Assembly: GCF_041381155.1 (NCBI RefSeq)
Contig: NC_091136.1
Coordinates: 45,808,284-45,872,283, forward strand
Source of the DNA: Argopecten irradians
Lineage: Eukaryota > Mollusca > Bivalvia > Pectinida > Pectinidae
Direction of reading: 5' to 3'
Length of the DNA: 64,000 nucleotides
This document shows, piece after piece, positions 34,501 to 62,656 of the stretch. Below the pieces are notes generated by a model. That model did not search any database. It worked only from the letters and a program-made list of their open reading frames with translations, and was not told the DNA's origin. Position 1 is the first letter of the stretch. Each line of letters opens with the position of its first letter. The translations under genes were made by a program, and so were the position numbers.

Positions 34501-35027
34501 TGTCGTTAAGAAAAGTGTTGATATTTGTGTTATTTTGGAAATTAACAGATTGATTTACGGTTACTATTTCCAATTGATTTCTTGTTTATTGTAATAGATA
34601 TTGAGAGTAATTAAAAATTTTAACTAAAATAAAATGTTACATTGACACAACTAAAATTTCATAGATATCTTCAACCGTGAGAGGCTAAAACCAAAGGAAA
34701 ATATTTCAAGTTCAAAAGTCAAGCTGACGGGTTTGATTGACGAAATGATACCACTGTTTGGAAATAATTTAGTTGAACTATGATAATTTGAATTTATTCA
34801 GTCAAATTAACATTAACATAATGTAATAGATATTGCCTTAACTCCAGGTACTGCAAGTACTTCAACCATGGAAACAATCACGGACAAAACCACGGACATA
34901 TCCACGGACATTACCACGGAAACTACCACGGAAACTACCACGATCGCTACGACTACGTTCAATGAAATGACGAATACCATGGAGATAATGGATACCACCG
35001 ATCCTCCAACCACCACGACAACCACGG
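31531..35027 (+). CDS. Secreted Thr-rich (mucin-like) protein, 5' exons
   Basis: Two exons are proposed. Exon 1 (31531-31591) encodes a signal peptide MASCFQLCVTIFIIFYLDKT and ends G|GTAAGT in phase 1. Exon 2 (34848-35027, acceptor TAACTCCAG) continues in phase 1 with TASTSTMETITDK, then repeated (T)DIT/TETT-type Thr-rich sequence, and ends PPTTTTTT plus a split Gly at G|GTAAGA, again phase 1. The product is a secreted segment heavy in potential O-glycosylation sites. No downstream exon can be assigned with certainty. The SRCR exon at 49716 has a compatible phase, so one possibility is a Thr-rich stalk followed by SRCR domains. The 11-kb array that begins about 165 bases after exon 2 is built from the exon 2 end. 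Linking the two exons is inference from phase and orientation. Confidence 0.5.
32131..32420 (-). mobile_element. Reverse copy of the 7425-7812 SINE-type element
   Basis: It starts with the tail AATGTCCTATTAACAGCCAG. It continues in reverse order through the blocks seen at 7425-7812 (CACCCGGTCACATACCGACA, CCAGTCGTCCCACTC, AATCTACCACTTTTATAGA). It is diverged and lacks the far end. Confidence 0.65.
33215..33390 (+). repeat. tRNA-derived SINE, degraded copy
   Basis: The 5' end GGGGCCGCGAAGGCCGTATG corresponds to the tRNA-like A-box end of the family. ATAATACCACAAGCTCTCCA and GTTGCCAGGCACTGACTG follow in family order. The B box is lost. Confidence 0.6.
34258..34538 (+). repeat. 35-bp minisatellite, about eight units
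   Basis: Units contain AAAAGTGTTGATATTTGTG followed by TTATTTTGTCGT(T/A)AAG. Variation is limited to a few positions. It lies about 300 bases before the Thr-rich exon. Confidence 0.9.
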
Positions 35028-35192
35028 GTAAGATCGGATCCCCGCAATTGTAAGGTAGATCAAAGATGAGACCAATAGTCTTTAACCACACTTTACAAAT
35101 ACAGGTATAACGGATAATTCAAGACAAATCCTATTACCAACACGGCAGGTACAGATTAAATCACCATGACAATACAAAGTTAGGCACATGAC
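35028..35192 (+). other. Linker between the Thr-rich exon and the 33-bp array
   Basis: Intronic sequence between the GTAAGATC donor and the first regular repeat. Reading through the exon frame meets TAA at 35051. Short AG|GT sites (AATACAGGTATAAC at about 35099, GGCAGGTACAG at about 35143) could serve as splice sites. Confidence 0.5.
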
Positions 35193-38100
35193 GATTACAG
35201 GTAAGACCAACTCTACCACCACGAAGATTACAGGTAAGACCAAATCTACGACCACGACGATTACAGGTAAGACCAACTCTACCACCACGACGATTACAGG
35301 TAAGACCAACTCTGCCACCACGACGATTACAGGTAAGATCAACTCTGCCACCACGACGATTACAGGTAAGACCAACTCTACCACCACGAAGATTACAGAT
35401 AAGACCAACTCTACCACCACGAAGATTACAGGTAAGACCAACTCTACCACCACGAAGATTACAGGTTAGATCATAGCTACGACCACGACGATTACAGGTA
35501 AGACCTAACCTAACACCACGACGATTACAGGTATGACCAAATGTACCACCACGAAGATTACAGGTAAGACCAACTTTACCACCACGATGATTACAGATAA
35601 GACCAAACCTACGACCACGACAATTACAGGTAAGACCAACTCTACCACCACGATGATTACAGGTAAGACCAACTCTACCACCACGAAGAATACAGATAAG
35701 ACCAACTCTACCACCACGAAGATTACAGGTAAGACCAACTCTACCACCACGACAATTACAGGTAAGACCAACTCTACCACCACGAAGATTACAGATAAGA
35801 CCAAACCTACGACCACGACAAATACAGGTAAGACCAAATCTACCACCACGATGATTACAGGTAAGACCAACTCTACCACCACGAAGATTACAGATAAGAC
35901 CAACTCTACCACCACGAAGATTACAGGTAAGACCAACTCTACCACCACGACAATTACAGGTAAGACCAACTCTACCACCACGAAGATTACAGGTAAGATC
36001 ATAGCTACGACCACGAAGATTAAAGGTAAGACCAACTCTACCACCACGAAGATTAAAGGTAAGGTCATAGCTACGACCACGACGATTACAGGTAAGACCT
36101 AACCTAACACCACGACGATTACAAGTATGACCAAATCTACCACCACGAAGATTAAATGTAAGACCAACTCTACCACCACGAAGATTTCAGGTAAGATCAA
36201 AGCTACCACCACGACGATTACAGGTAAGACCAACTCTACCACCGCCACGATTACAAGTAAGACCTAACCTACCACCACGACGATTACAGGTAAGACCAAC
36301 TCTACCACCACGAAGATTACAGGTAAGACCAACTCTACCACCACGAAGATTACAGGTAAGACCAACTCTACCACCACGAAGATTACAGGTTAGATCATAG
36401 CTACGACCACGACGATTACAGGTAAGACCTAACCTAACACCACGACGATTACAGGTATGACCAAATCTACCACCACGAAGATTACAGGTAAGACCAACTT
36501 TACCACCACGATGATTACAGGTAAGACCAACTCTACCACCACGAAGATTACAGGTAAGACCAACTCTACGACCACGACGATTACAGGTAAGACCAACTCT
36601 ACCACCACGAAGATTACAGGTAAGACCAACTCTACCACCACGAAGATTACAGGTAAGACCAACTCTACCACCACGACAATTACAGGTAAGACCAACTCTA
36701 CCACCACGAAGATTACAGATAAGACCAAACCTACCACCAAATACGATAAGACCAAATTACCACCACGATGATTACAGGTAAGACCAACTCTACCACCACG
36801 AAGATTACAGATAAGACCAACTCTACCACCACGAAGATTACAGGTAAGACCAACTCTACCACCACGACAATTACAGGTAAGACCAACTCTACCACCACGA
36901 AGATTACAGGTAAGATCAATAGCTACGACCACGAAGATTAAAGGTAAGACCAACTCTACCACCACGAAGATTAAAGGTAAGGTCATAGCTACGACACCAC
37001 GACAAGATTACAGGTAAGACCTAACCTAACACCACGACGATTACAGTATGACCAAATCTACCACCACGAAGATTAAATGTAAGACCAACTCTACCACCAC
37101 GAAGATTACAGGTAAGACCAACTCTACCACCACGAAGATTACAGGTAAGATCAACTCTACCACCACGACGATTACAGGTAAGACCAACTCTACCACCACG
37201 ACGATTACAGGTAAGACCAAATCTACGACCACGACGATTACAGGTAAGACCCAACCTACCACCACGACGATTACAGGTAAGACCAACCACGAAGATTACT
37301 AAACCAACTCTACCACGACGATTACAGGTAAGACCAACTCTACACCACAGATTACAGGTAAGACCAACTCTACCACCACGAAGATTACAGGTAAGACCAA
37401 CTCTACCACCACGAAGATTACAGGTAAGACCAACTCTACCACCACGAAGATTACAGGTAAGACCAACTACACCACAAATTACAGGTAAGACCAACTCTAC
37501 CACCACGAAGATTACAGGTAAGACCAACTCTACCACCACGAAGATTACAGGTAAGATCAAACCTACGACACGACGATTACAGGTAAGACCAACTCTAACC
37601 ACCACGACGATTACAGGTAAGACCAACTCTACCACCACGACGATTACAGGTAAGACCAACTCTACCACCACGAACGATTACAGGTAAGACCAACTCTACC
37701 ACCACGAACGATTACAGGTAAGACACCTACCACCACGACGATTACAGGTAAGACCAACTCTACCACCACGACGATTACAGGTAAGACCAACTCTACCACC
37801 ACGACGATTACAGGTAATGACCAACTCTACCGACCACGACGATTACAGGTAAGACCAACTCTACCACCACGAAGATTACAGGTAAAGACCAAATCTACCA
37901 CCACGACGATTACAGGTAAGACCAAACTCTACCACCACGAAGATTACAGGTAAGACCAAACTCTACCACCACGAAGATTACAGGTAAGACCAACTCTACC
38001 ACCACGAAGATTACAGGTAAGACCAACTCTACCACCACGAAGATTACAGGTAAGACCAACTCTACCACCACGAAGATTACAGGTAAGACCAACTCTACCA

Positions 38101-41100
38101 CCAGGAAGATTACAGGTAAGATGACCAAATCTACCACCACGAGATTACAGGTAAGACCAACTCTACCACCACGAAGATTACAGGTAAGACCAACTCTACC
38201 ACCACGAAGATTACAGGTAGACCAACTCTACCACCACGAAGATTACAGGTAAGACCAACTCTACCACACCACGAAGATTACAGGTAAGACCAAACCTACC
38301 ACCACGACGATTACAGGTAAGATCAACGATACTAAAACTCGACCACGAAGATTACAGGTAAGATCATAACCTACGACCACACGACGATTACAGGTAAGAC
38401 CTAACCTAACCACCACGACGATTACAGGTAAGATAGCTACACCAACGATTACAGGTAAGACCAAACCTACGACCACGACGATTACAGGTAAGACCAAGTA
38501 CCACGAAGAATTACAGGTAAATACAAACCACCACGAAGATTACAGGTAAGACCAACTCTACCACCACGAAGATTACAGGTAAGATCATAGCTACGACCAC
38601 GAAGATTACAGGTAAAGACCAAACCTAACACCACGACAATTACAGGTAAGACCAACTCTACCACCACGAAGATTACAGGTAAGACCAACTCTACCACCAC
38701 GAAGATTAAAGTAAGATCATAGCTTACGACCACGACGATTACAGTAAGACCTAACCTAACACCACGACGATTACAGGTAAGACCAACTCTACCACCACGA
38801 AGATTACAGGTAAGACCAACTCTACCACCACGAAGATTACAGGTAAGACCAAAGCTACCACCACGAAGATTACAGGTAAGATCATAAGCTACCACCACGA
38901 CGATTACAGGTAAGACCAACTCTAACACCACGAAGATTACAGGTAAGACCAACTCTTCCACCACGAAGATTACAGGTAAGATCAAAACTACCACCACGAC
39001 GATTACAGGTAAGATCATAGCTACACCACGAAGAATTACAGGTAAGACCAACTCTACCACCACGAAGATTACAGGTAAGACCAACTCTACCACCACGAAG
39101 ATTACAGGTAAGACCACTCTACGACCACGAAGATTACAGGTAAGACCCAACTCTACCACCACGAAGATTACAGGTAAGACGACTGGTAAACCTATTCCTA
39201 ACCACCACGACGATTACAGGTAAGACCAACTCTACTCACCACGAAGATTACAGGTAAGATCAAACTCTACCACCACGACGATTACAGGTAAGACCAACTC
39301 TGCCACCACGACGATTACAGGTAAGACCAACTCTACCACCACGACGATTACAGGTAAGACCAACTCTACCACCACGAAGATTACAGGTAAGACCAAAACT
39401 CTACCACCACGAAGATTACAGGTAAGACCAAATCTACGACCACGAAGATTACAAGGTAAGACCAAACCTACCACCACGACATTACAGGTATGACCAACTC
39501 TACACCACGAACGATTACAGGTAAGACCAACCTACGACCACGACGATTACAGGTAAGACCAATCTACACACACGAAGATTACAGGTAAGACCAACTCTAC
39601 CACCACGAAGATTACAGGTAAGACCTAACCTACACCACGACGATTACAGGTAAGACCAATCTACGACCACAAAAAATACAGGTAAGACCAACTCTACCAC
39701 CACGAAGATTACAGGTAAGACCAAACCTACGACCACGACAGATTACAGGTAAGACCAAATCTACACACCACGAAGATTACAGGTAAGACCAAACCTACGA
39801 CACCACGACGATTACAGGTAAGACCTAACTCTACCACCACGACGATTACAGGTAAGACCAAACCTATGACCACGAAATTACAGGTAAGACCAACTCTACC
39901 ACCACGAAGATTACAGGTAAGATCATAAACCTACGACCACGACGATTACAGGTAAGACCAAATCTAACACCACGAAGATTACAGGTAAGACGAAACTCTA
40001 CGACCACGACAATTACAAGGTAAGACCAACTCTACCACCACGAAGATTACAGGTAAGACCAAACCTACGACCACGACAATTACAGGTAAGACCAAACTCT
40101 ACCACCACGAAGATTACAGGTAAGATTAATACCTACGACCACGACGATTACAGGTAAGACCAACTCTACCACCACGAAGATTACAGGTAAGACCAACTAT
40201 ACCACCACGAAGATTACAGGTAAGAAAACCAAAGTCTACCACCACGAAGATTACAGGTAAGATCATAGCTACGACAACGACGATTACAGGTAAGACCTAA
40301 CCTAACACCACGACGATTACAGGTATGACCAACTCTACCACCACGAAGATTACAGGTAAGACCAACTCTACCACCACGAAGATTACAGGTAAGACCAAAT
40401 CTACGACCACGACGAATTACAGGTAAGACCAACTCTACACCACGAAGATTACAGGTAAGACCAAATCTACCACCACGAAGATTACAGGTAAGACCCAACT
40501 CTACCACCACGAAAGATTACAGGTAAGACCAACTCTACCACCACGAAGATTACAGGTAAGACCAACTACTACCACCACGAAGATTACAGGTAAGATCATA
40601 GCTACCACCACGACAGATTACAGGTAAGACCTAACCTAACACCACGACGATTACAGGTAAGCTCCACCAACAAACGAAACAGGTAATATCTACCACCACG
40701 AAGATTACAGGTAAGACCAAACTCTACCACCACGAAGATTACAGGTAAGACCAACTCTACCACCACGAAGATTACAGGTAAGACCAACTCTACCACCACG
40801 AAGATTACAGGTAAGACCAAACCTACGACCACGACGATTACAGGTAAGACCAAATCTACCACCACGAAGATTACAGGTAAGACCAAACCTCTACCACCAC
40901 GAAGATTACAGGTAAGACCAACTCTCTACCACCACGAAGATTACAGGTAAGACCAAAAATCTACCACCACGAAGATTACAGGTAAGACCAACTCTACCAC
41001 CACGAAGATTACAGGTAAGACCAACTCTACCACCACGAAGATTACAGGTAAGACCAAATCTAACACCACGACAATTACAGGTAAGACCAACTCTACCACC

Positions 41101-44100
41101 ACGAAGATTACAGGTAAGACCAACTCTACTACCACCACGAAGATTACAGGTAAGATCATAGCTACACCACGACGATTACAGGTAAGACCTAACCTAACAC
41201 CACGACGATTACAGGTATGACCAAATCTACCACCACGAAGATTACAGGTAAGACCAACTCTACCACCACGAAGATTACAGTAAGACCAAACTCTACCACA
41301 CGAAGATTACAGGTAAGACCAAATCTACCACCACGAAGATTACAGGTAAGACCAAATCTACCACCACGAAGATTACAGGTAAGACCAAACTCTATCACCA
41401 CGAAGATTACAGGTAAGACCAAAACTCTACCACCACGAAGATTACAGGTAAGATCCAAACTACCACCACGACGATTACAGGTAAGATCAAGCTACGACCA
41501 CGACGATTACAGGTAAGACCAACTCTTCCACCACGACGATTACAGGTAAGACCAACTCTACCACCACGAAGATTACAGGTAAGACCAACTCTACCACCAC
41601 GAAGATTACAGGTAAGACCAAGCTACGACCACGAAATTACAGGTAAGACCTAACTAACACCACGACGATTACAGGTAAGACCAACTCTACCAACACGACG
41701 ATTACAGGAAAGACCAAAAGCTACCACCACGACGATTACAGGTAATGACCAACTCTACCACCACGACGATTACAGGTAAGACCTAACCTAACACCACGAC
41801 GATTACAGGTAAGACCAACTCTACCACCACGACGATTACAGGTAAGACCAACTCTACCACCACGAAGATTACAGGTAAGACCAACTCTACCACCACGAAG
41901 ATTACAGGTAAGACCAACTCTACCACCACGAAGATTACAGGTAAGACCAAACCTACGACCACGACAATTACAGGTAAGACCAACTCTACCACCAGGAAGA
42001 TTACAGGTAACACGAAACCTACCACCACGACAATTACAGGTAAGACCAACTCTACCACCACGAAGATTACAGGTAAGATCATATCTACCACCACGACGAT
42101 TACAGGTAAGACCAAACTCTACACACCACGAAGATTACAGGTAAGACCAACTCTACCACCACGAAGATTACAGGTAAGACCAACTCTACCACCACGAAGA
42201 TTACAGGTAAGACCTAATAGCTACCACCACGACGATTACAGGTATGACCTAACCTACCACCCACGACGATTACAGGTATGACCAACTCTACCACCACGAA
42301 GATTACAGGTAAGACACAAACTCTACCACCACGAAGATTACAGGTAAGATCAAACTCTACCACCACGACGAATTACAGGTAAGACCAACTCTACCAGCCA
42401 CGACCAGATTACAGGTAAGACCAAACTCTTACCACCACGATAGATTACAGGTAAGACCAACCCCTACCATTACGAAAGATTACACGGTAAGATTCAACTC
42501 TACGACAACGACAATTACAGGTAAGACCCAAACTCTACCACCACGACGATTACAGGTAAGACCGAAACCTACGACCACGACAATTACAGGTAAGACCAAC
42601 TCTACCACCACGAAGATTACAGGTAAGACCAACTCTACCACCACGAAGATTACAGGTAAGACCAACTCTACCACCACGAAGATTACAGGTAAGATCATAG
42701 CTACGACAACGACGATTACAGGTAAGACCTAACCTAACACCACGACGATTACAGGTATGACCAAACTCTACCACCACGAAGATTACAGGTAAGACCAAAG
42801 CTACCACCACGAAGATTACAGGTAAGACCAACTACGACCCACGACGATTACAGGTAAGACCAACCTAACACCACGACGATTACAGATAAGACCAAATCTA
42901 CCACCACGAAGATTACAGGTAAGACCAACTCTACCACCACGAAGATTACAGGTAAGACCAACTCTACCACCACGACGAATTACAGGTAAGACCAAACCTA
43001 CACCACGACAATTACAGGTAAGACCAAATCTATCACCACCACGACGATTACAGGTAAGATCAAACCTACGACCACGACGATTACAGGTAAGACCAACTCT
43101 ACGGCCACGACGATTACAGGTAAGATCAAAACTACCACCACGAATATTACAGGTAAGACCAACTCCACCACAACGACGATTACAGGTAAGATCAAACTCT
43201 ACGACCACGACGATTATAGGTAAGACCAACTCTACCACCACGACGATTACAGGTAATATCATAGCTACGACCACGACAATTACAAGTAAGACCAACTCTG
43301 CCACCACGACGATTACAGGTAAGACCAACTCTACCACCACGACGATTACAGGTAAGACCAACTCTACCACCACGACGATTACAGGTAAGACCAACTCTAC
43401 CACCACGACGATTACAGGTAAGACCAACTCTACCACCACGACGATTACAGGTAATGATCATAGCTACCGACCACGTCCAAGTAAGACCAACTCTTCCACC
43501 ACGATAATAAACACTATACCACCACGAAGATTACAGGTAAGACCAACTCTACCACCACGAAGATTAACAGGTAAGAATCATAGCTACCGACCACGACGAT
43601 TACAGGTAAGACCTAACCTAACACCACGACGATTACAGGTATGACCAACTCTACCACCACGACGATTACAGGTAAGACCAACTCTACCACCACGACGATT
43701 ACAGGTAAGATCAACTCTACCACCACGACGATTACAGGTAAGACCAACTCTACCACCACGACGATTACAGGTAAGACCAAATCTACCACCACGACGATTA
43801 CAGGTCAGACCCAACCTACCACCACGAAGATTACAGGTAAGACCAAACCTATGACCACGACAATTACAGGTAAGACCAACTCTACCACCACGAAAGATTA
43901 CAGGTAAAGACAAGCTACAACCACGACGATTACAGGTAAGACCAACTCTACCACCACGACGATTACAGGTAAGACCAAATCTACACCACGAAGATTACAG
44001 GTAAGACCAACTCTACCACCACGAAGATTACAGGTAAGATCATAGCTACGACCACGACGATTACAGGTAAGACCTAACCTAACACCACGACGATTACAGG

Positions 44101-46220
44101 TAAGACCAACTCTACCACCACGAGATTACAGTAAGACCAACTCTACCACCACGAAGATTACAGGTAAGATCAACTCTACCACCACGAACGATTACAGGTA
44201 AGACCAAACCTACCACCACGACGATTACATATCAAGCTACACCACGACATTAGTAACAACTACCACCACGAAGATTACAGGTAAGACCAACTCTACCACC
44301 ACGAAGATTTACAGGTAAGATAAAAGCTACGACCACGACGATTACAGGTATGACCAAATCTACCACCATGACGATTACAGGTAAGATCAAACCTACGACC
44401 ACGACGATTACAGGTAAGACCAACTCTACGGCCACGACGATTACAGGTAAGACCAAATCTACCACCACGACGATTACAGGTAAGACCAACTCTGCCACCA
44501 CGACGATTACAGGTAAGACCAACTCTACCACCACGACGATTACAGGTAAGACCAAACCTACGACCACGACGATTACAGGTAAGACCAACTCTACCACCAC
44601 GACGATTACAGGTAAGACCAAAACTCTACCACCACGACAATTACAGGTAAGACCAACTCTACCACCACGACAATTACAGGTAAGAACAACTCTACTATCA
44701 CGAAGATTACAGATAAGATCAACTCTACCATCACGAAGATTACAGGTAAGACCAAATCTACCGCCACGACAATTACAGGTAAGACCAACTCTACCACCAC
44801 GACAATTACAGGTAAGAACAACTCTACCACCACGAAGATTACAGGTAAGACCAACTCTACCACCACGAATATTACAGGTAAGATCAAAGCTACCACCACG
44901 ACGATTACAGGTAAGACCAAACCTACGACCACGAGAATTACAGGTAAGACCATCTCTACTACCACGAAGATTACAGGTTGGTTTGGTTTGTTTAGTTTTA
45001 CGTCCTATTAACAGCCAGGGTCATGTAAGGACGTGCCAGGTTTTGTTGGTGGAGGGAAAGCCGGAGTACCCGAGAAAAACCACCGGCCAGCGGTCAGCAA
45101 CTGCCCCTCTACCACCCACGAAGCAACTCCCCACAGGATTAGACAAACCCGCATCCCAGAGGTGGAGGGCTTGTGGTAATATGTCGGGACATCAAACCAC
45201 TCGGCCACCGCGGCCCCTAGGATAACAGGTAAGATCAAACCTACGACCATGACGATTACAGGTAAGACCTAGCCTAACACCATGATTATTACAGGTAAGA
45301 CAAAATCTACCACCACGCCTATTACAGGTAAGACCAACTCTACCACCACAAAGATTATAGGTAATACCAACTCTACCACCACGAAGATTACAGGTAAAAT
45401 CAAACCTACGACCACGACGATTACAGGTAAGACCAAATCTACCACCACGCCGATTACAGGTAAGACCAAATCTACCACCATAACGATTACAGGTAAGACC
45501 AACTCTACCACCACGAAGATTACAGGTAAGATCAAACCTACGACCACGATGATTACAGGTAAGACCAACTCTACCACCACGAAGATTACAGATAAGACCA
45601 ATTCTATCACCACGAAGATAAGATTAAAGATAAGACCAACTCTACCACCACGAAGATCACAGGTAATGTCATAGCTACGACCACGACTATTAGAGGTAAG
45701 ACCTAACCTAACACCACGACGATTACAGGTATGACCAACTCTACCAACACGACGATTACAGGTAAGATAAAAGCTACGACCACGACGATTACAGGTATGA
45801 CCAAATCTACCACCATGACGATTACAGGTTAGACCTAACCTAAAACCACGACGATTACAGGTAAGACCAACTCTACCACCACGAAGGTTACAGGTAAGAC
45901 CAACTCTACCACCACGCCGATAATACCAAATCTACCACCACGACGATTACAGGTAAGACCCCAACCTACCACAACGACGATTACAGGTCAGTACCAAATC
46001 TACCACCACGAAGATTACAGGTAAGACCAACTCTACCACCACGACGATTACAGGTAAGACCAAATCTACCACCACGACGATTACAGGTCAGACCCAACCT
46101 ACCACCACGACGATTACAGGTCAGACCCAACCTACCACAACGACGATTACAGGTCAGACCAAATCTACCGCCACAACGATTACAGGTTAGATAAAACCTA
46201 CCATCGCGACGATTACAGTT
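35193..46220 (+). repeat. 33-bp tandem array, about 325 units, carrying a 5' splice site in each unit
   Basis: The unit reads GATTACAGGTAAGACC, then AACTCTACCACCACGAA, with common variants (GAC for GAA, AAATCTACG). On the plus strand it encodes an 11-residue cycle, ITGKTNSTTTK, with an N-S-T glycosylation sequon. Each unit contains ACAG|GTAAGA, a near-ideal 5' splice site. The unit matches the 3' end and donor of the exon at 34848-35027 (ACCACCACGAC, then GGTAAGA; 22 of 27 bases), in the same reading frame. The first 1.5 kb is mostly in register. From about 36.7 kb many single-base indels break the frame. The minus strand gives hydrophobic VVVELVLPVIF frames that are antisense shadows. Higher-order markers (GACCTAACCTAAC) recur. 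A SINE interrupts at 44978. Confidence 0.95.
44978..45218 (-). mobile_element. tRNA-derived SINE inserted in the 33-bp array
   Basis: Read on the minus strand it starts GGGGCCGCGGTGGCCGAGTG, a clear tRNA-like A box. CCCGACATATTACCACAAG, a decayed B-box region (GATGCGGGTTTGTC), a CCGCTGGCCGGTGG body and the tail CCTGGCTGTTAATAGGACG with a TTTG-type end follow. This is the most complete copy in the window. Both sides are array units (ATTACAGGT on the left, ATAACAGGT on the right), which may be the target duplication but are ambiguous inside a repeat. Confidence 0.85.
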
Positions 46221-46573
46221 AAGAAGTATGTATTGAAAATGGTAATACAGCAGCACTAAGTGAAAACCTAACAACCTTTGCTTAGTACTTGCAACTGCAG
46301 CACATCAGATTTCAACTGAATACCTAGAGATAGAGAAATTATGGTAAAAGTCAGGACATCGTATCCAGGCGACGATAACTACTCAATACGATGGCCATGG
46401 CAACGCATTAGGGGAAATCATTACCGGAAGTAATACCCGTTTCATTCTATGGTTTATATGTATGCATTCGACTTGGTCACTCGAGTGTCGAGTAAATGTT
46501 TCTTAACGCATATGCTGTGTGATTAACATAAATTACAAAAGAAACGCCGAGAACAATTTTTAGAAAGCGATTA
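46221..46573. other. Non-coding DNA between the array and LINE 2
   Basis: Unique-looking sequence with no supported gene. No exon following the Thr-rich exon could be recognised here. Confidence 0.4.
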
Positions 46574-49196: not shown

Positions 49197-49260
49197 ATGA
49201 TGTCAGTATATTTTCGATATATCGTCCCCACCGTGGTTGTTCTCTATGGGAAGTTTGTTG
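49197..49260 (+). CDS. SRCR gene exon 1 (signal peptide)
   Basis: Two adjacent ATG codons (49197, 49200) are followed by a hydrophobic stretch (YIVPTVVVLYGKFV). The exon ends TTG|GTAAGT. The exon 31531-31591 has the same layout and phase, so the two could be alternative first exons or first exons of neighbouring paralogues. Confidence 0.7.
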
Positions 49261-52200
49261 GTAAGTCCACCTAACACTGATCGGGTGGTTGTTGTTCATA
49301 TAAAATGAATGTAAACGTGATGAGGCATGATATTGTGTGATAATTTGTTACTCTTAATATCATTTATATATATATATATATAATATGACATAGATGTTAG
49401 AAACGTATCTAGAATAAAGATATCAAAATGTTTCAAAACGAAATCGTGATTTTACTCGACTATTTTGCATTTGAATTATCGTTGTTTTGTGTTTGCTTCC
49501 ATCACGGTACATGAATATAATAATATGAATATGTGTGTCGAGAAAGATATACAAACATAGTATGCATGAAAAGTGGTATGTCATGTGCAGGCAAAATATA
49601 TTAATGTACGTATTTTCATTCGAATAGCTTTCAGTGAATTTAGTTATGAAAATAAATATTATTTAGCATAATATTATACTAAGATATTTTGCGGATTATT
49701 TTGTTTCCGGTATAGAAACTCTAACAACAGAGTCGCCTTTTGCGATACGTCTGGAGAACGGCCTGCACAACCATACTGGACGGGTAGGAGTATATCATGA
49801 CGGACAATGGGGCGGGATCTGTAGTAGGTCACGAACCAATAACATCGCAAACGTGGCGTGCAGGATGTTAGGCTACAGGTATGGATACTAATGATGTTAG
49901 GCTACAGGTATGGATACTAATGAGGTTAGGCTACAGGTATGGATACTAATGAGGTTAGGCTACAGGTATGGATACTAATGAGGTTAGGCTACAGGTATGG
50001 ATACTAATGAGGTTAGGCTACAGGTGGATACTAATGAGGTTAGGCTACAGGTATGGATACTAATGAGGTTAGGCTACAGGTATGGATACTAATGAGGTTA
50101 GGCTACAGGTATGGATACTGATAAGGTTAGGATACAGGTATGGATACTAATGAGGTTAGGCTATAGGTATGGATACTAATGAGGTTAGGCTACAGGTATG
50201 GATACTAATGAGGTAAGGCAATAGGTATGTATACTAATTAGGTTAGGTACAGGTGTGATACTAATGAGGTAAGGCAATAGGTATGTATACTAATGAGGTT
50301 AGGCTACAGGTATGGATACTAATGAGGTTAGGCTACAGGTATGGATACTAATGAGGTTAGGCTACAGGTATGGATACTAATGAGGTTAGGCTACAGGTAT
50401 GGATACTAATGAGGTTAGGCTACAGGTATGGATACTAATGATATTAGGCTACAGGTATGGATACTAATGAGATTAGGCTACAGGTATGGATACTAATGAG
50501 GTTAGGCTACAGTTATATATACCAATGAGGTTAGGCTACAGGTATGGATACTAATGAGGTTAGGATACAGCTATGGATACTAATTGGGTTAGGACACAGG
50601 TATAGATACTAATGAGATAAGGCTAAAGGTATGGATACAAATGAGGTTAGGCAACAGGTATGGATGCTAATGTGGTTAGGATACAGGTAGGGATGCTAAT
50701 GGGGTTAGGCTACAAGTATGGATACTAATGAGGTAAGGATACAGGTATAGATACTAATGAGATAAGGATACAGGTATAGATACTAATGAGATAAGGCTAC
50801 AGATAAAGATAATAAAGAAGTTTGGATACAGGCATAGATACTTATGATGTTAGGCTTTATGTATGAATACTAATGAGGTTAGGCTACAGGTATGGATACT
50901 AATGAGATTAGGCTTCAGGTATGGATACTAATGGGGTTAGGCTACAAGTATGAATACAGTGAGATTAGGCTACAGGTATGAATACTAATTAGGTTAGGCT
51001 ACAGGTATGGATACTAATGAGGTTAGGCTATAAGGTATGGATACTAATGAGGTTAGGCTACAGGTATGGATACTAATGAGGTTAGGCTACAGGTATGGAT
51101 ACTAATGAGGTTAGGCTACAGGTATGGATACTAATGAGGTTAGGCTACAAGTATGGATACTAATGAGGTTAGGCTACAGGTATGGATACTAATGAGGTTA
51201 GGCTACAGGTATGTATACTAATAAGGTTAGGCTACAGGTATGGATACTAATGAGGTTAGGCTACAGGTATGGATACTAATGAGTTAGGTTAGGCTACAGG
51301 TATGGATACTAATGAGGTTAGGCTACAAGTATAGATACTAATGAGATTAAACTATATGTATGGATACAAATGAGGTTAGGCTACAAGTATGTATACTAAT
51401 GATATTAGGCTACAGGTATGGATACTAATGAGGTTAGGCTACAGGTATGGATACTAATGAGGTTAGGCTACAGGTATGGATACTAATGAGGTTAGGCTAC
51501 AGGTATGGATACTGATAAGGTTAGGATACAGATATGGATACTAATGAGGTTAGGCAATAGGTATGGATAATAATGAAGTTAGGCTACAGGTATGGATACT
51601 AATGAGGTTAGGCTACAGGTATAGATACTAATGAGGTTAGGGAACAGCTATGGATACTAATGAGGTTAGGCTACAGGTATGGATACTAATGAGGTTAGGC
51701 TACAGGTATGGATACTAATGAGGTTAGGCTACAGGTATGGATACTAATGAGGTTAGGCTACAGGTATGGATACTAATGAGGTTAGGCTACAGGTATGGAT
51801 ACTAATGAGGTTAGGCTACAGTTATATATACCAATGAGGTTAGGCTACAGGTATGGATACTAATGAGGTTAGGATACAGGTATGGAAACTAATGGGGTTA
51901 GGACACAGGTATAGATACTAATGAGATAAGGCTAAAGGTATAGATACTTATGATGTTAGGATACAGGTATGGATGCTAATGAGATTAGGCTACAGGTATG
52001 GATACTAATGATGTAAGGCTACAGGTATTGATACGTATGATGTAAGGATACAGGTATTGATACTAATGAGATAAGGATACAGGTATAGGTACTAATGAGA
52101 TAAGGCTACAGATATATATAATAAAGAGGTAAGGATACAGGTATAGATACTTATGATTTTAGGCTTTATGTATGAATACGAATGAGGTTAGGCTATAGGT

Positions 52201-55200
52201 ATGGATACTAATGAGATTAGGCTTCAGGTATGGATACTAATGGGGTTAGGCTACAAGTATGGATACAAATGAGGTTAGGCAACAGGTATGGATACTAATG
52301 AGGTAAGGCTACAAGTTTGGATACTAATTAGGTTAGGCTACAGGTATAGATTCTAATGCGATTGGGCTACAGGTATGTATACTAATGAGGTTAGGCTATA
52401 GGTATGGATAGTAATGAGGTTAGACTGCAGGTATGAATACCTATGATGTTAGGCTACATGTATGGATACTAATGAAGTTAGGCTACAGGTATGGATAGTA
52501 ATGAGGTTAGGCTACAGGAATGGATACTAATGCGTTTAGGCTACAGAAACGGATACTAATGAGGTCAGACTACAGGTATTGATACTAATGAAGTTAGACT
52601 ACAGGTATGGATATTAATGAGGTTATGCTTCAGGTAATGATACTAATGAGGTTTGGCTACAGAAACGGATACTAATGAGGTTAGGCTACAGATATGGATA
52701 CTAATGAGGTTAGGCTACAGGTATTGATATTAATGAAGTTATGGTTCAGGTATGGATACTAATGAGGTTTGACTACAGGTATGTATACTAATGAGGTTAG
52801 GCTACAGGTATCTATAGTAATGAGGTTAGGCTACAGGTATGGATACTATTTAGGTTAGACTACAGGTATGGATACTAATGAGGTTAGGCTACAGGTATGG
52901 ATATTAATGAGGTTATGGTTCAGGTATTGATACCAATGAGGTTAGGCTACAGATACGGATACTAATGAGGTCAGACTACAGGTATGGATACTAATGATGT
53001 TATGCTACAGGTATGGATACTAATGAGTTTAGGCTACAGGTATAGATACTAATGAGGCTGGACTACAGGTATAGATATTAATGAGGTTATGCTACAGGTA
53101 TGGATACTAATGAGATTAGGCTACAGTTATGGACACTAATGGGGTTAGGCTACATGTATGTATAGTAATGAGGTTAGGCTACAGGTATGGATACTAGTGA
53201 GATTATGCTATAAATTATGGATACTAATGAGGTTAAGGCTACATGTATGGATACTAATAAGGTTAAGCTACAGGTATAGATACTAATGTGGATTAGGCCA
53301 AAGGAATGGATACTAATGAGGTTAGGACTACAGGTATGGATACTAATGAGGTTTAGACTACATGTATGTATAGTAATGAGGTTAGGCTACAGGTATAGAT
53401 ACTAATGAGGTTAGGCTACAGGTATGGATACTAATGAGGTTAGGCTACAGGTATGGATACTAATGAGGTTAGGCTTCAGGTATGGATACTAATGAGGTTA
53501 GGCTACAGGTATGGATACTAATGAGGTTAGACTACAGGTATGGATACTAATGAGGTTAGGCTACAGGTATGGATACTAATGAGGTTAGGCTACAGGTATG
53601 GATACTAATGAGGTTACTACAGGTATGGGGATACTAATGAGGTTAGGCTACAGGTATGGATACTAATGAGGTTAGGCTACAGGTATGGATACTAATGAGG
53701 TTAGGCTACAGGTATGTATACTAATGAGGTTAGACTACAGGTATGGATACTAATGAGGTTAGGCTACAGGTATGGATACTAATGAGGTTAGGCTACAGGT
53801 ATGGATACTAATGAGGTTAGGCTACAGGTATGGATACTAATGAGGTTAGGCTACAGGTATGGATACTAATGAGGTTAGGCTACAGGTATGGATATTAATG
53901 AGAGTTAGGCTACAGGTATGGATACTAATGAGGTTTGACTACAGGTATGGATACTAATGAGGTTAGGCTACAGGTATGGATACTAATGAGGTTAGGCTAC
54001 AGGTATGGATACTAATGAGGTTAGGCTACAGGTATGGATACTAATGAGGTTAGGCTACAGGTATGGATACTAATGAGGTTAGGCTACAGGTATGGATACT
54101 AATGAGGTTAGGCTACAGGTATGGATACTAATGAGGTTAGGCTACAGGTATGGATACTAATGAGGTTAGGCTACAGGTATGGATACTAATGAGGTTAGGC
54201 TACATGTATGGATACTAATGAGGTTAGGCTACAGGTATGGATACTAATGAGGTTATGCTACAGGTATGGATACTAATGAGGTTAGGCTACAGGTATGGAT
54301 ACTAATGAGGTTAGGCTACAGGTATGGATACTAATGAGGTTAGGCTACAGGTATGGATACTAATGAGGTTAGGCTACAGGTATGGATACTAATGAGGTTA
54401 GGCTACAGGTATGGATACTAATGAGGTTAGGCTACAGGTATGGATACTAATGAGGTTAGGCTACAGGTATGGATACTAATGAGGTTAGGCTACAGGTATG
54501 GATACTAATGAGGTTAGGTTACAGGTATCTGATACTAATGAGGGTTATGGCTATGAGTTATACAGATACGGATACTAATGAGGTCAGACTACAGGTATGG
54601 ATATTAATGAGGTTATGCTACAGGTATGGATACTAATGAGGTTAGGCTACAGGTATGGATACTAATGAGGTTAGGCTACAGGTATGGATACTAATGAGGT
54701 TAGGCTACAGGTATGGATACTAATGAGGTTAGGCTACAGGTATGGATACTAATGAGATTATGCTACAGGTATGGATACTAATGAGGTTAAGGCTACAGGT
54801 ATGGATACTAATGAGGTTAGGCTACAAGGTATGGATACTAATGAGGTTAGGCTACAGGTATGGATTACTAATGAGGTTAGGCTACAGGAATGGATACTTA
54901 TGAGGTTAGACTACAGGTATTGATACTAATGAGGTTAGGCTACAGGTATGGATACTATTTAGGTTAGGCTACAGGTATGGATACAAATGAGGTTAGGCTA
55001 CAGTTATAGGGTTCTAATGAGGTAAGACTAAAGATATGTATACTAATGAGGTTAGACTACAGGTATGGATACTAATGAGGTTAGGCTACAGGTATGGATA
55101 CTAATGAGGTTAGGCTACAGGTATGGATACTAATGAGGTTAGGCTACAGGTATGGATACTAATGAGGTTAGGCTACAGGTATGGATACTAATGAGGTTAG

Positions 55201-58200
55201 GCTACAGGTATGGATACTAATGAGGTTAGGCTACAGGTATGGATACTAATGAGGTTAGGCTACAGGTATGGATACTAATGAGGTTAGGCTACAGGTATGG
55301 ATACTAATGAGGTTAGGCTACAGGTATGGATACTAATGAGGTTAGGCTACAGGTATGGATACTAATGAGGTTAGACTACAGGTATGGATACTAATGAGGT
55401 TAGACTACAGGTATGGATACTAATGAGGTTAGGCTACAGGTATGGATACTAATGAGGTTAGGCATACAGGTATGGATACTAATGAGGTTAGGCTACAGGT
55501 ATGGATACTAATGAGGTTAGGCTACAGGTATGGATACTAATGAGGTTAGACTACAGGTATGGATACTAATGAGGTTAGGCTACAGGTATGGATACTAATG
55601 AGGTTAGGCTACAGGTATGGATACTAATGAGGTTAGGCTACAGGTATGGATACTAATGAGGTTAGGACTACAGGTATGGATACTAATGAGGTTAGGCTAC
55701 AGGTATGGATACTAATGAGGTTAGGCTACAGGTATGGATACTAATGAGGTTAGGCTACAGGTATGGATACTAATGAGGTTAGGCTACAGGTATGGATACT
55801 AATGAGGTTAGGCTACAGGTATGGATACTAATGAGGTTAGGCTACAGGTATGGATACTAATGAGGTTAGGCTACAGGTATGGATACTAATGAGGTTAGGC
55901 TACAGGTATGGATACTAATGAGGTTAGGCTACAGGTATGGATACTAATGAGGTTAGGCTATAAGTATGGATACTAATGAGGTTAGGCTACAGGTATGGAT
56001 ACTAATGAGGTTAGGCTACAGGTATAGATACTAATGAGGTTAGGCTACAGGTATGGGATACTAATGAGGTTAGGCTACAGGTATGGATACTAATGAGGTT
56101 AGGCTACAGGTATGGATACTAATGAGGTTAGGCTACAGGTATGGATACTAATGAGGTTAGGCTACAGGTATATGGATACTAATGAGGTTAGGCTACTACA
56201 GGTATGGATACTAATGAGGTTAGGCTACAGGTATGGATACTAATGACGGTTACGGCTACAGGTATGATACTAATGAGGTTAGGCTACAGGTATATGGATA
56301 CTAATGAGGTTAGGCTACAGGTATGGATACTAATGAGGTTAGGCTACAGGTAATGGATACTAATGAGATTAGGCTATAAGTATGGATACTAATGAGGTTA
56401 GGCTACAGGTATGGATACTAATGAGATTAGGCTATAAGTATGGATACTAATGAGGTTAGGCTACAGGTATGGATACTAATGAGGTTAGGCTACAGGTATG
56501 GATACTAATGAGGTTAGGCTACAGGTATGGATACTAATGAGGTTAGGCTACAGGTATGGATACTAATGAGGTTAGGCTACAGGTATATGGATACTAATGA
56601 GGTTAGGCTACAGGTATGGATACTAATGAGGTTAGGCTACAGGTATGGATACTAATGAGGTTAGGCTACAGGTATGGATACTAATGAGGTTAGGGCTACA
56701 GGTAATATGGATACTAATGAGGTTAGGCTACAGGTATGGATACTAATGAGGTTAGGCTACAGGTAGTGGATACTAATGAGGTTAGGCTACAGGTATGGAT
56801 ACTAATGAGGTTAGGCTACAGGTATGGATACTAATGAGGTTAGGCTACAGGTATGGATACTAATGAGGTTAGGCTACAAGTATGGATACTAATGAGGTTA
56901 GGCTACAGGTATGGATACTAATGAGGTTAGGCTACAGGTATGGATACTAATGAGGTTAGGCTACAGGTATGGATACTAATGAGGTATAGGCTACAGGTAT
57001 GGATACTTAATGAGGTTAGACTACAGGTATGGATACTAATGAGGTTAGGCTACAGGTATGGATACTAATGAGGTTAGGCTACAGGTATGGATACTAATGA
57101 GGTTAGGCTATAAGTATGGATACTAATGAGGTTAGGCTACAGGTATGGATACTAATGAGGTTAGGCTACAGGTATGGATACTAATGAGGTTAGGCTACAG
57201 GTATGGATACTATAATGAGGTTAGGCTACAGGTATGGATACTAATGAGGTTAGGCTACAGGTATGGATACTAATGAGGTTAGGCTACAGTATGGATACTA
57301 ATGAGGTTAGGCTACAGGTATGGATACTAATGAGGTTAGGCTACAGGTATGGATACTAATGAGGTTAGGCTACAGGTATGGATACTAATGAGGTTAGGCT
57401 ACAGGTATGGATACTAATGAGGTTAGGCTTACAGGTATGGATACTAATGAGGTTAGGCTACAGGTATGGATACTAATGAGGTTAGGCTACAGGTATGGAT
57501 ACTAATGAGGGTTAGGCTACAGGTATGGATACTAATGAGGTTTGGCTACAGGTATGGATACTAATGAGGTTAGGCTACAGGTATGGATACTAATGAGGTT
57601 AGGCTACAGGTATGGATACTAATGAGGTTAGACTACAGGTATGGATACTAATGAGGTTAGGCTACAGGTATGGATACTAATGAGGTTAGGCTACAGGTAT
57701 GGATACTAATAGGTTAGGCTTCAGGTATGGATACTAATGAGGTTAGGCTACAGGTATGGATACTAATGAGGTTAGGCTACAGGTATGGATACTAATGAGG
57801 TTAGGCTACAGGTATGGATACTAATGAGGTTAGGCTACAGGTATGGATACTAATGAGGTTAGGCTACAGGTATGGATACTAATGAGGTTAGGCTACAGGT
57901 ATGGATACTAATGAGGTTAGGCTACAGGTATGGATACTAATGAGGTTAGGCTACAGGTATGGATACTAATGAGGTTAGGCTACAGGTATGGATACTAATG
58001 AGGTTAGGCTACAGGTATGGATACTAATGAGGTTAGGCTACAGGTATGGATACTAATGAGGTTAGGCTACAGGTATGGATACTAATGAGGTTAGGCTACA
58101 GGTATGGATACTAATGAGGTTAGACTACAGGTATGGATACTAATGAGGTTAGGCTACAGGTATGGATACTAATGATGTTAGGCTACAGGTATGGATACTA

Positions 58201-61113
58201 ATGAGGTTAGGCTACAGGTATGGATACTAATGAGGTTAGGCTACAGGTATGGATACTAATGAGGTTAGGCTACAGGTATGGATACTAATGAGGTTAGGCT
58301 ACAGGTATGGATACTAATGAGGTTAGGCTACAGGTATGGATACTAATGAGGTTAGGCTACAGGTATGGATACTAATGAGGTTAGGCTACAGGTATGGATA
58401 CTAATGAGGTTAGGCTACAGGTATGGATACTAATGAGGTTAGGCTACAGGTATGGATACTAATGAGGTTAGGCTACAGGTATGGATACTAATGAGGTTAG
58501 GCTACAGGTATGGATACTACTGAGGTTAGGCTACAGGTATGGATACTAATGAGGTTAGGCTACAGGTATGGATACTAATGAGGTTAGGCTACAGGTATGG
58601 ATACTAATGAGGTTAGACTACAGGTATGGATACTAATGAGGTTAGGCTACAGGTATGGATACTAATGAGGTTAGGCTACAGGTATGGATACTAATGAGTT
58701 TAGGCTACAGGTATGGATATTAATGAGGTTATGGTTCAGGTATTGATACCAAAGAGGTTAGGCTACAGATACGGATACTAATGAGGTCAGACTACAGGAA
58801 TGGATACTAATGAGGTTAGGCTACAGGTATGGATACTAATGAGGTTAGACTACAGGAATGGATACTAATGAGGTTAGGCTACAGGTATAGATACTAATGC
58901 GGTACGGTCCATAGCTATGGATACTAATGAGGTTTGACTACAGGTATGGATACTAATGAGGTTAGGCTACAGGTATGTATAGTAATGAGGTTAGGCTACA
59001 GGTATGGATACTAAGAGGTTAGACTACAGGTATGTGTACTAATGAGGTTAGGCTACAGGTATTGATACTACTGAGGTTAGGCTACAGGTATGGATACTAA
59101 TGAGGTTAGGCTACAGGTATGGATATTAATGAGGTTAGGTTACAAGTATGGATACTAATGATGTTATGCTACAGGTATGGATACTAATGAAGTTAGAATA
59201 CAGGTATGGATACTAATGAGGGAAGGCTACAGGTATGGATACTAATGAGGTAATGCTACAGGTATGGATAATAATGAGGTTAGGCTACAGGTATGGATAC
59301 TAATGGGGTTAGGCTTCAGGTATGGATACTAATGAGATTAGGCTACAGGTATGGATACCACTGAGGTTAGGCTACAGGTATGGATACTAATGAGAATAGG
59401 CTACAGGTATGGATACTAATGAGGTTAGGCTACAGGTATGGATACTAATTAGGTTAGGCTTCAGGTATGGATACTAATGAGGTTAGGCTACATGTATGGA
59501 TACTAATGAGGTTAGGCTACAGGTATGGATACTAATGAGATTAGGCTACAGGTATGGATACTAATGAGGTTAGGCTACAGGTATGGATACTAATGAGAAT
59601 AGGCTACAGGTATGGATCTTAATGATGTTAGTTATAGGTATGAATACTAATGAGGTTAGGCTGTAAGTATGGATACTAATGAGGTAAGGCTACAGGTATG
59701 GATACTAATGAGGTTAGGCTTCAGGTATGGATACTAATGAGGTTAGGCTACAGGTATGGATACTAATGAGGTTAGGCTACAGGTATGGATACTAATGAGG
59801 TTAGGCTACAGGTATGGATACTAATGAGGTTAGGCTACAGGTACGGATACTAATTAGGTTAGGCTTCAGGTATGGATACTAATGAGGTTAGGCTACCGGT
59901 ATGGATACTAATGGGGTTAGGCTACAGGTATGGATACTAATGAGGTTAGACTACAGATATGTATACTAATGATTGATATGTACGTAATATCTCTTTCACA
60001 CATACATGAAAGCCATGCGCATCAACATTTCTTCTTAATATATTTTACCTAAATTGATTCCATCTGTGATTTATTTGCCTAATATATATGAAAAGGTATG
60101 TGTAAGTTTTCATTGCATGAACGGTACATTAGAAATATGCCACTGCATGAAGTAGCGTAGGTCAAATCTGTCCTACGATTTCATGTTTTAATAAGTACTG
60201 CGATACCCGGGGTTGGGGATTAGGACATATGAGTATGAAATATGAGTAAGGTCAGGTCGGACTGCCTTGTCAGTTATAGAGGGTGAAATTTTATTTGTAA
60301 TTTTATATCGAATTATATTTTAAAATTATTTTTCATGAATTACTATGAATTGATATGTAGCAAATAAAACAAATTGTGAAATAAACTTACTGTCAAAAAG
60401 TGACAGTTTGAATTGGATTAATTTAGATACTTACCCTTATTATGACATACACATTTGAGATAAAGTTGATGTACTTTTCTTCGTTTGTAATAGTTACGGA
60501 AGTAACGTTGTTGGAAGGGATCCTGTTTTCACTCTCGCGTCGGCCTGGTATGAATGGTTTGGTAATGAGACAGACCCAGACCTTATATGGATGGATAATG
60601 TCCAGTGTACTGGTACAGAGTCCAGCCTGGAAGATTGTGCCTTTGATGGATGGGGTATTCAACGAAATCCTTGTAACTCAGATTACAGACCCTATGTGTT
60701 TTGCTACGCGGAAGGTAATTTGCTTGTTTTATTGTGAATTCCAATCCAACGAGCGAAACATAACATGCTTGAAATGCTAGATACATTTCGTAGGTTTATC
60801 TCTAACAAAACAAAATAAATCTAATCATAGTTTTCATAAAAACGTTATGCCAATTAGTGTTCATACCGAAGGCCTTTTGCGTAAGCTAGTTTGTCGATCA
60901 AAGACATCGTTTTAACTTGATGTGTGGTTAAGTGTGAATTTTCATTTCACTGCTTTTGAACATACATGCATATGTGTACATAAATGTGTTATCAGATAGG
61001 CATTTCAAACTCCTCTATACAATATTCCATACGTTTTTAAACGTTGATGTTGTAGCACAACATTCATTTTTAGCTCGCCTATTCGAAGAATAGGGGGAGC
61101 TAATGTTGTCAAC

Positions 61114-61145
<32 letters not shown>

Positions 61146-62656
61146 AGCGTTGGCGTCCCATTTCACGTTAAAGTTTTTGAGCAAGTTTCTGTTTCGTCAA
61201 TTGTTTAAGCTTAAGTCATCATAAATGTTTATGATTTTATTTTCCTAATGTGTATGGATGCTGAACGTGATAATACAACCAATTTGGGGCCCTTTAGGTT
61301 TTTTTTGAGTCTGTTAATTTGTCATATTTCCATGTTAAAGTTTTTGAGCAAGTTTCTATTTTGTCTATTGTTTAAGCTTAAGTCATCATAAATGTTTATG
61401 ATTTTATTTTCCTAATGTGTATGGATGCTGAACGTGATAATACAACCAATTTGGGGCCCTTTAGGGGTTTTTTGAGTCTGTTAATTTGTCATATTTCCAT
61501 GTTAAAGTTTTTGAGCAAGTTTCTATTTTGTCAATTGTTTAAGCATAAGTCATCATAAATGTTTATGATTTTATTTTCCTAATGTGTATGGATGCTGAAC
61601 GTAATAATACAATCAATTTGGGGACCTTTAGGTTTTTTGGAGTATGTTAATTTGTCATATTTCCATGTTTAAATAGTAAATACTTGAACATCAACTTCTT
61701 CTGAATAGGGAGCTTTGCTGTTCTCCAACAGCTCTTGTCTTGTCAGATTTAACACTTAAAATGGAAAAATACATAAAATTGTATTTTTAAAAAGATTTTT
61801 TGTGCAATACTGCATGCGATTTTCTTCCATGTTATGCTATCCTGAATTGTGTTATCTATTGAAAACCATACGGTTCGTTGAATTAAAGAGTGGATATAAT
61901 TCCAATGGATATACACGCATGTATGATGCCTTATAAACATTGGTTGCAACACATAATTTATACATTGTAAAATTCCTGTAAAACATGAAATGAAATTGTA
62001 GACCACACCATGGTTTCATAGTGCGACTATATGTACTTCCAAAATTATTTTTGAGCTTTTATTTGAACTGTAAAATTTAGACCTATGTATTGTAAGTATT
62101 GTAATTATCAAAACAGCATACGAAGTATTGTAATTATCAAAACAGCATACGAACCTGGCACGAATTTCTTACCCGCAGTATTCATATATAAATATATATA
62201 TCATAGTATCAAGGGTATGAACTCTACGGTGGAGAAAAACTGACACATTTGTTAATCAATGATTCTTTTTTTAAATAAACGGACTCTCTATGTCAGTGAC
62301 GCATGGAGACATAATTTTTTCTATGTAAATGTTATATATATGTATTGTACCTTTTGTGGGCTTACATGATTAAGTGTGAAATCAGCGTAAAATCAGAATT
62401 ATCAAAATGCCTGTTACATAAATAGAGGTACTGTATTCTGTATCACCCATAAAGCTCGCAGAAAGTCACATTGCTTTAGTGTGACTATCGTATTAATGTT
62501 TTTACATTCAGATGACAGTAACATAGGAGTCCGGCTAGTGGGTGGTACCTCCGAAGCCAGTGGACATGTTGAAGTGCATTACAGTGGTTATTGGGGCAGT
62601 GTTGGTTATTCCTGGCATAGAGTGGACCAGGTTGTATGTAGGATGCTTGGATACAG
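49197..62656 (+). CDS. Secreted or membrane SRCR-domain protein, 5' four exons (gene continues past window)
   Basis: Four exons join with consistent phases: 49197-49260 (phase 1 end), 49716-49878 (phase 2 end), 60494-60714 (phase 1 end) and 62512-62656 (phase 2 end). The product has a signal peptide starting MMSVYFRYIVPTVVVLYG and a short ETLTTESPF linker. A complete SRCR domain follows (AIRLENGLHNHTGRVGVYHD to YRPYVFCYAE) with six cysteines, the group A pattern. The N-terminal half of a second SRCR domain comes next (IGVRLVGGTSEASGHVEV to CRMLGY). Both domains are interrupted after the CRMLGY motif, the same intron position. SRCR proteins bind microbial or endogenous polyanionic ligands. The intron in domain 1 is 10.6 kb and is mostly a tandem array grown from the exon 2 end. 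More SRCR exons presumably follow. Confidence 0.85.
49261..49715 (+). other. SRCR gene intron 1
   Basis: AT-rich intron with a (TA)n run at 49363-49383. The acceptor is TTTCCGGTATAG. Confidence 0.6.
49716..49878 (+). CDS. SRCR gene exon 2 (first half of SRCR domain 1)
   Basis: Encodes the start of the domain through GQWGGIC and ANVACRMLGY, with two cysteines. Its last 12-14 bases, (AT)GTTAGGCTACAG, are themselves the first unit of the array that follows. The donor is GTATGG. Confidence 0.85.
49865..59975 (+). repeat. 29-bp tandem array, about 345 units, filling SRCR intron 2
   Basis: The unit reads GAGGTTAGGCTACAG|GTATGG followed by ATACTAAT. It repeats the end of exon 2 (GTTAGGCTACAG) and its donor (GTATGG). 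The first intronic unit still has GATGTTAGG as in the exon. Later units have GAGGTTAGG. The left 3 kb and the right 1.3 kb are diverged. The centre (about 53.4-58.7 kb) is almost uniform. Every reading frame meets stops, so the array is non-coding. The unit has a 5' splice-site copy, an AG preceded by TAC, and a TACTAAT that resembles a branch point. Confidence 0.95.
59976..60493 (+). other. 3' end of SRCR intron 2
   Basis: Ordinary AT-rich intron after the array. It ends in an acceptor TCGTTTGTAATAG with a T-rich stretch (ACTTTTCTTCG) before it. Confidence 0.6.
60494..60714 (+). CDS. SRCR gene exon 3 (second half of SRCR domain 1)
   Basis: Joined to exon 2 it reads CRMLGYSYGSN, then IWMDNVQCTGTESSLEDCAF, NPCNSDYRPYVFCYAE. 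It supplies the last four cysteines of the domain in canonical order. Donor GAAG|GTAATT. Confidence 0.88.
60715..62511 (+). other. SRCR gene intron 3
   Basis: Contains a transposon-like repeat with internal 167-bp tandem units (61072-61745) and a 29-bp duplication (62095-62123 and 62124-62152). Acceptor TTTACATTCAG. Confidence 0.6.
61072..61745 (+). mobile_element. Repeat element with (GGCGTC)n and three 167-bp internal units
   Basis: The start is TTAGCTCGCCTATTCGAAGA, a small hairpin (GCCTATTCGAAGAATAGG). A (GGCGTC)n run at about 61108-61150 follows, then three tandem copies of a 167-bp unit beginning GTTAAAGTTTTTGAGCAAG at 61167, 61334 and 61501. The end is about GAACTGTTGGAG-like sequence in reverse (CTCCAACAGCTC) near 61730. 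The structure resembles a non-autonomous repeat common in bivalve genomes. The class is not certain. Confidence 0.55.
62512..62656 (+). CDS. SRCR gene exon 4 (first half of SRCR domain 2)
   Basis: Encodes IGVRLVGGTSEASGHVEV, then GYWGSVGYSWHRVDQVVCRM and LGY, ending at the same point of the domain as exon 2. The usual first Cys (WGxxC) is Gly here. Donor TACAG|GTAAGT. Confidence 0.85.

Follow-up and report, generated by a model that had tools for sequence, protein, structure and literature searches.

A 29-bp tandem array, probably grown from an exon–intron junction, fills most of an intron in a predicted SRCR gene

How does a gene come to carry hundreds of copies of its own 5′ splice site within one intron, and how might it still be spliced? 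The question is raised by a 64,000-nucleotide stretch of contig NC_091136.1 (hereafter the window), in which intron 2 of a predicted gene with SRCR domains is 10,615 nt long and a tandem array of 29-bp units occupies about 95% of it. We consider it very likely that this is a minisatellite of the rare kind called mirages in amphioxus: a 29-bp segment spanning the junction between exon 2 and intron 2 would have been duplicated, amplified to 347 units and tolerated, the copied donors being apparently neutral.

The array is far beyond chance. Tandem Repeats Finder (TRF) reports a 29-bp period at 49867–59972 (347.0 copies, 91% matches, score 16838). When the units are phased on the exon in a cyclic alignment, with one extra partial unit left out, 347 full units result, of which 309 are exactly 29 bp long, 308 contain no indel and 158 are exactly the consensus; 150 distinct forms occur. 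By sequence, the unit straddles the exon 2/intron 2 junction: in unit 1, GATGTTAGGCTACAG (49864–49878) closes the exon and GTATGGATACTAAT (49879–49892) opens the intron. Unit 2 matches unit 1 at 29 of 29 nt across this junction, and the same exact form is found once more, in unit 286. The original prediction described the unit as a copy of the exon 2 end joined to its donor, with the exon end itself as unit one; this stands, save that the exonic share is 15 nt, not 12. It also drew on the exon variant GAT persisting in the first intronic unit. That variant is real and not unique, T at unit column 3 being present in 14 of 347 units (1, 2, 21, 35, 54, 73, 75, 76, 80, 90, 109, 286, 320, 336), a base rate of about 4% at which it says little alone. 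The exon overlap is independent of the GAT argument.

Further support comes from the gene model. Spliced together, predicted exons 1–4 give 197 residues in frame and without a stop, and the Pfam SRCR profile (PF00530) matches this product in two stretches at 96.2 bits, above its curated cut-off of 26.1. The best stretch (residues 36–146, 1.5e-27) spans the exon 2/3 join. A PDB search with the product matched 22 distinct sequences, whose names we take to be those of SRCR proteins; the best was M130 (4.1e-66), also known as CD163. In that alignment as printed, the predicted protein has additional residues directly after the exon 2/3 join. Because the four exons splice to an open frame and an SRCR domain crosses the join, the predicted donor at 49878 is well supported. 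Exon 1 appears to encode a signal-peptide-like sequence. The end of exon 4 falls at the corresponding point of a second SRCR domain, and intron 2 is therefore an SRCR-internal intron whose position is repeated within the gene.

Exon 4 also supplied the paralogous exon end with which we polarised the array. Counted by eye, 14 of 17 bases agree between the ends of exons 2 and 4, and both carry the Met codon ATG. The T of this codon is absent in 333 of 347 units, the array consensus reading GAGG. Since ATG is common to exon 4 whereas nearly all units lack the T, the exon state would be ancestral and the array derived, so that the array was most likely copied from the exon, and most of it would descend from a copy with T changed to G. 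At its founding, the 29-bp segment (15 nt of exon and 14 nt of intron) would have been duplicated in tandem, and slippage or unequal exchange would have amplified it to 347 units. The sequence directly 3′ of the array starts GATTGATATG; the founder may have had GAT on both flanks, with slippage between the two GATs. Growth would be tolerated in that unit 1 keeps an intact exon end and donor, all further units being intronic. The proposed growth out of an SRCR exon end with its donor is well supported: unit 1 spans the junction, splicing is in frame, the SRCR domain extends over the join and exon 4 shares the ATG.

Divergence along the array bears on how it grew. Changes per unit average 1.0 in the first 20 units, are mostly 2.7–3.1 in units 21–120 (one 20-unit bin, 1.35), drop to 0.15–0.75 in units 121–300 (one bin, 1.7) and reach 1.1–1.95 in the last 47. 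The array had been described as drifting away from the exon variant, but we found no steady drift; changes per unit are uneven (0.15–3.1), as expected from local expansions. Variant sharing between units exceeds expectation at offsets 1–7 and 10 (34 against 14.0 at offset 1), with little at 8 and 9, which fits local duplication. A search for higher-order blocks (at least three identical units, at least two non-consensus) found none in the array. Special conservation of the exon-proximal units was considered and rejected: the 6 changes in units 2–10 were equalled or beaten by 147 of 339 nine-unit windows. Among units 11–120, 3 of 102 such windows matched or beat them.

How far do the copies still resemble splice sites? 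The prediction of about 345 tandem 5′ splice-site copies with identical local context came close to the number of units, 347, but the splice-site copies are fewer than the units, and their context was overstated as identical. GT and AG each persist in 321 units and AGGT in 296, so that 26 units have lost GT and 51 AGGT; CAGGT occurs 286 times, at a spacing of 29 nt in 214 of 285 intervals, and TACTAAT 294 times. Pairing with U1, for which we used what we take to be its 5′ end sequence, was scored without forcing the splice-site register on the 343 units with an ungapped nine-base donor, unit 1 included, and in 257 of these the pairing is no weaker than that of the real donor (−7.7 kcal/mol). 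How often a position has changed depends mostly on its base (G 6.7%, C 6.1%, T 2.6%, A 2.1%). For the donor core the rate is 4.37%, against 4.40% at base-matched positions. Because the donor core changes as often as base-matched positions, the copied donors appear selectively neutral. RNA structure that hides the donors was also considered and set aside, shuffled versions of the first five units folding just as well (z 0.59; 146 of 200 at least as stable).

The gene could, in principle, be spliced as before. We expect the first donor to be the one used. With a later donor the mRNA would be longer by 29n nt, n being the number of units added, and would include the TAA that lies in frame in unit 1; the stop codon, within unit 1, is the same one (index 79, counted from 0) for each of the 285 alternative CAGGT donors. 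A wrong donor would cut the protein short within the SRCR domain and, under the usual rule, leave a message prone to nonsense-mediated decay. Splicing within the array would be less consequential. In 20,000 of 20,000 random splices from CAG/GT to CAG/GT (the slash marking the splice junction), exon 2 and its GT remained intact owing to the periodicity of the array; such events would only delete array, and the mRNA need not change if the first donor finally joins exon 3. The choice of donor, put forward as an open question, is not wholly open in print: excerpts of two reports suggest, partly from reverse transcription PCR (RT-PCR), that amphioxus mirages do not interfere with regular splicing (PMC3087553, PMC3902484).

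Some observations sit less easily with a neutral, junction-born array. The GAT microhomology is only 3 nt, short enough for chance. The exon 4 end aligns to the 29-bp unit with a cyclic score of 17, with 35 of 200 shuffles scoring at least as high; as this is not significant, the comparison with exon 4 depends on the alignment by eye and on the protein motif that the exons share. With any of five CAGGT donors, one of them the predicted real donor, exon 2 would be at most 300 nt long, and because the four alternatives (192–279 nt) keep it below 300 nt, length alone cannot single out the first donor. Finally, GT alone is changed at 4.03% against 4.72% at base-matched positions, the preceding AG at 3.75% against 4.46% and TACTAAT at 2.43% against 3.19%. 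These slightly lower rates, compared without a significance test and over units that are not independent of one another, may reflect weak constraint, although nothing demands it.

The splicing machinery might make use of the array, either with ratchet-like or dual-specific sites through which the intron is removed in steps, or with hundreds of U1 sites that load the U1 small nuclear ribonucleoprotein onto the transcript. We judge such use unlikely. Each unit does combine a TACTAAT that resembles a branch point, an acceptor end CTACAG and a donor CAG/GTATG, and the retention of AGGT and TACTAAT, the many sites that equal the real donor in U1 pairing and the slightly lower change rates are all in its favour. 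The whole donor core, by contrast, is conserved no more than base-matched positions. A ratchet point, moreover, requires a functional acceptor with a pyrimidine tract directly before the donor, whereas the acceptor side of the unit has a pyrimidine fraction of 0.41 and the three predicted acceptors have fractions of 0.71, 0.76 and 0.65. In addition, TACTAAT, as read from the unit, is separated from the AG by no more than about 16 nt. A precedent exists in human UBC, whose tandem repeats contain AGGT sites in dual-specific use (PMC10809524, in excerpt). It is similarly doubtful, though worth stating, that the array is a splice-competent satellite, its hundreds of units being spliced stochastically with one another in nascent RNA so that the 10.6-kb intron shrinks stepwise and the mRNA is unchanged. 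If so, this array and the second one described below would together offer about 525 strong U1 sites (257 + 268), and closure under splicing would explain why donor-born arrays grow so large.

We give very little credence to a true exon 2 end further downstream, with part of the array coding: most of the donors after the first are of about its strength (257 of 343), but an in-frame TAA follows exon 2 directly in all 285 CAGGT alternatives, and it is the join of exon 2 to exon 3 that completes the SRCR domain. Introns commonly contain minisatellites, and an unrelated satellite might have arisen in or inserted into this one and matched the exon by chance or through array-to-exon conversion, yet this is scarcely credible given that units 1 and 2 are identical at every position across the junction, that the exon end encodes an SRCR motif also present in exon 4 and so is hardly array-derived, and that the 29-bp unit was not detected elsewhere in the window (both strands, 2-kb pieces, score at least 34). 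Nor was the exact unit found in viral and prokaryotic contig collections, and an Rfam scan of the window at the gathering threshold gave 0 matches.

A junction-born minisatellite has close relatives in print, which we compare here as the excerpts of the cited papers describe them. Amphioxus mirages are minisatellite-like duplications of exon–intron boundaries, reported from Adh3, the globins BflGb6 and BflGb9, and troponin C, with similar imperfect repeats in PGBD5 (PMC3087553, PMC3902484). Like the 29-bp array, they have repeats that span the boundary, many AG/GT and an authentic exon end that is itself one unit. The present array, with units spanning the boundary of a predicted exon, AG/GT in many of them and a unit of minisatellite length, would accordingly class as a mirage, and its 29 bp fall within the 10–72 bp of the Adh3 units (PMC3087553). 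The two BflGb6 haplotypes have 3 or 6 units of 150–160 bp (PMC3087553, PMC3902484), in contrast to 347 units over 10 kb here. Also unlike the amphioxus cases, a single window holds two large arrays, both known from sequence, and the host is unlikely to be a cephalochordate.

Other systems share parts of this arrangement. In the repeats of UBC, and also of VCX3A (PMC10809524), as in ours, each repeat has an AGGT that is potentially donor or acceptor, and splicing from repeat to repeat removes whole units; AGGT recurs in our array at the repeat spacing, as in dual-specific splice-site arrays. The UBC repeats differ in being coding, 228 nt long and in frame, whereas the 29-nt repeats are intronic, not a multiple of 3, and only potentially dual in use. 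Intron gain through tandem AGGT duplication (Rogers 1989, via PMC3087553), with a case in a potato RNA-dependent RNA polymerase gene (PMC4974935), likewise duplicates an AG/GT-containing sequence in tandem; there a new intron arises inside an exon, while here an existing intron, at a position common to two SRCR domains, would have been enlarged. The ratchet points of recursive splicing juxtapose an acceptor and a donor (PMC8605326) and share CAG/GT with our unit, which differs in having no pyrimidine tract, no clear constraint and a use that is only potential. Intronic minisatellites are also described in abalone (27 bp, not placed at a splice site; PMC6905558) and, as of obscure nature, in earthworm metallothionein (PMC12783039), and repeats at exon–intron boundaries of human paralogs may form novel introns (PMC2812944). 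Among the papers listed by our literature searches, we noticed no comparable array outside chordates. The kind is thus already known, whereas the copy number, the pair of arrays and the probable non-chordate host seem new.

The second array, of 33-bp units, is probably another mirage, born from the end of a predicted Thr-rich exon that precedes it (Table 1). It has 328 units counting partials, the 324 full ones excluding an inserted element at about 44977–45220; most read CAG/GTAAG, and CAGGTAAG occurs 253 times. An ungapped donor is present in 308 of the 324, GT in 296, and 268 have GT together with U1 pairing at least as stable as that of the exon 2 donor. With the donors in register, the unit and the exon end agree at 21 of 25 positions (ACCACCACGACAACCACGGGTAAGA against ACCACCACGACGATTACAGGTAAGA), and exon and unit lie in a common reading frame (TTTTTTGK against TTTTITGK). 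The match score of 30 was reached by 0 of 200 dinucleotide shuffles and by 2 of 500 mononucleotide shuffles, a cruder control over a wider region; the 29-bp unit, as a control, gave 30/200 on the Thr-rich exon stretch and 13/200 on the stretch after it. In the 162 bp between the exon and the array, no decayed 33-bp units were detectable (63 of 200 shuffles as good). The origin can be called probable only, because the Thr-rich sequence is low in complexity, and this gap weighs against it, as do the predicted status of the exon and its lack of a Pfam match.

Taken as a pair, one array starting at an exon end and one probably born from another, they suggest that exon–intron junctions act as tolerated minisatellite seeds, which in turn suggests a route to intron lengthening. 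Mirages would not be confined to lancelets if, as the inserted element suggests, the host is a mollusc. The locus offers a natural experiment on 5′ splice-site choice, with hundreds of near-identical donors behind the predicted true one, and it shows how much duplicated splicing signal one gene can apparently carry.

Table 1. Features of the predicted SRCR gene and of the two long arrays (window coordinates; a slash marks a splice junction).
Feature	Position	Strand	Description	Basis
29-bp tandem array	49864..59970	+	347 full units, consensus GAGGTTAGGCTACAG/GTATGGATACTAAT	TRF, unit decomposition
Unit 1	49864..49892	+	last 15 nt of exon 2 and first 14 nt of intron 2; donor CAG/GTATGG, then TACTAAT
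Exon 1 (predicted)	49197..49260	+	start codon and signal-peptide-like coding, then GTAAGTCC; phase 1	sequence, in-frame splicing
Exon 2 (predicted, 163 nt)	49716..49878	+	N-terminal half of SRCR domain; end ...AGGATGTTAGGCTACAG
Exon 3 (predicted, 221 nt)	60494..60714	+	C-terminal half of SRCR domain; acceptor ...TTTGTAATAG/TTACGG
Exon 4 (predicted)	62512..62656	+	first half of second SRCR domain; end AGGATGCTTGGATACAG/GTAAGT
Thr-rich exon (predicted, 180 nt)	34848..35027	+	phase 1-1; without a match in Pfam; its end, ACCACCACGACAACCACGG/GTAAGA, is similar to the 33-bp unit
33-bp array	35190..46224	+	unit CTCTACCACCACGACGATTACAG/GTAAGACCAA, 324 full units, interrupted at about 44977–45220; probable second mirage

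Several smaller features accompany the arrays. The element inserted in the 33-bp array (44977–45220) presumably resembles a bivalve short interspersed element, and part of that array would predate the insertion. A third array at 34256–34537 (35 bp, 8.1 copies, 92%, TRF) has a donor-like first copy, GTCGGTAAGAA, and later copies that mostly have GTAAAG or GTTAAG in the place of the donor; an exon could possibly end at that site. At 29927–30185, TRF reports a 37-bp array (7.0 copies, 98% matches) at no recognised exon. Between the two long arrays, 46716–48460 holds broken reverse-transcriptase-like open frames, in which a profile search of 46716–47486 matched RVT_1 (1.5e-22), and frames similar to these by eye lie on the minus strand at about 9–11 kb. 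Two long open frames, 3391–5139 (minus strand, 582 aa) and 15522–17189 (plus strand, 555 aa), are alike by eye and gave no match to Pfam at 0.001.

Within the SRCR gene itself, intron 3 contains at 61115–61669 a CGGCGT run and a 167-bp unit (3.1 copies, 95% matches, TRF); we take the repeat near 61.1 kb to resemble a bivalve mollusc element. Elsewhere in the window, C1q-domain coding stretches lie at 22831–23265 (3.2e-18) and 26677–27162 (3.7e-18), and together with the SRCR gene they make up an innate-immunity-like neighbourhood.

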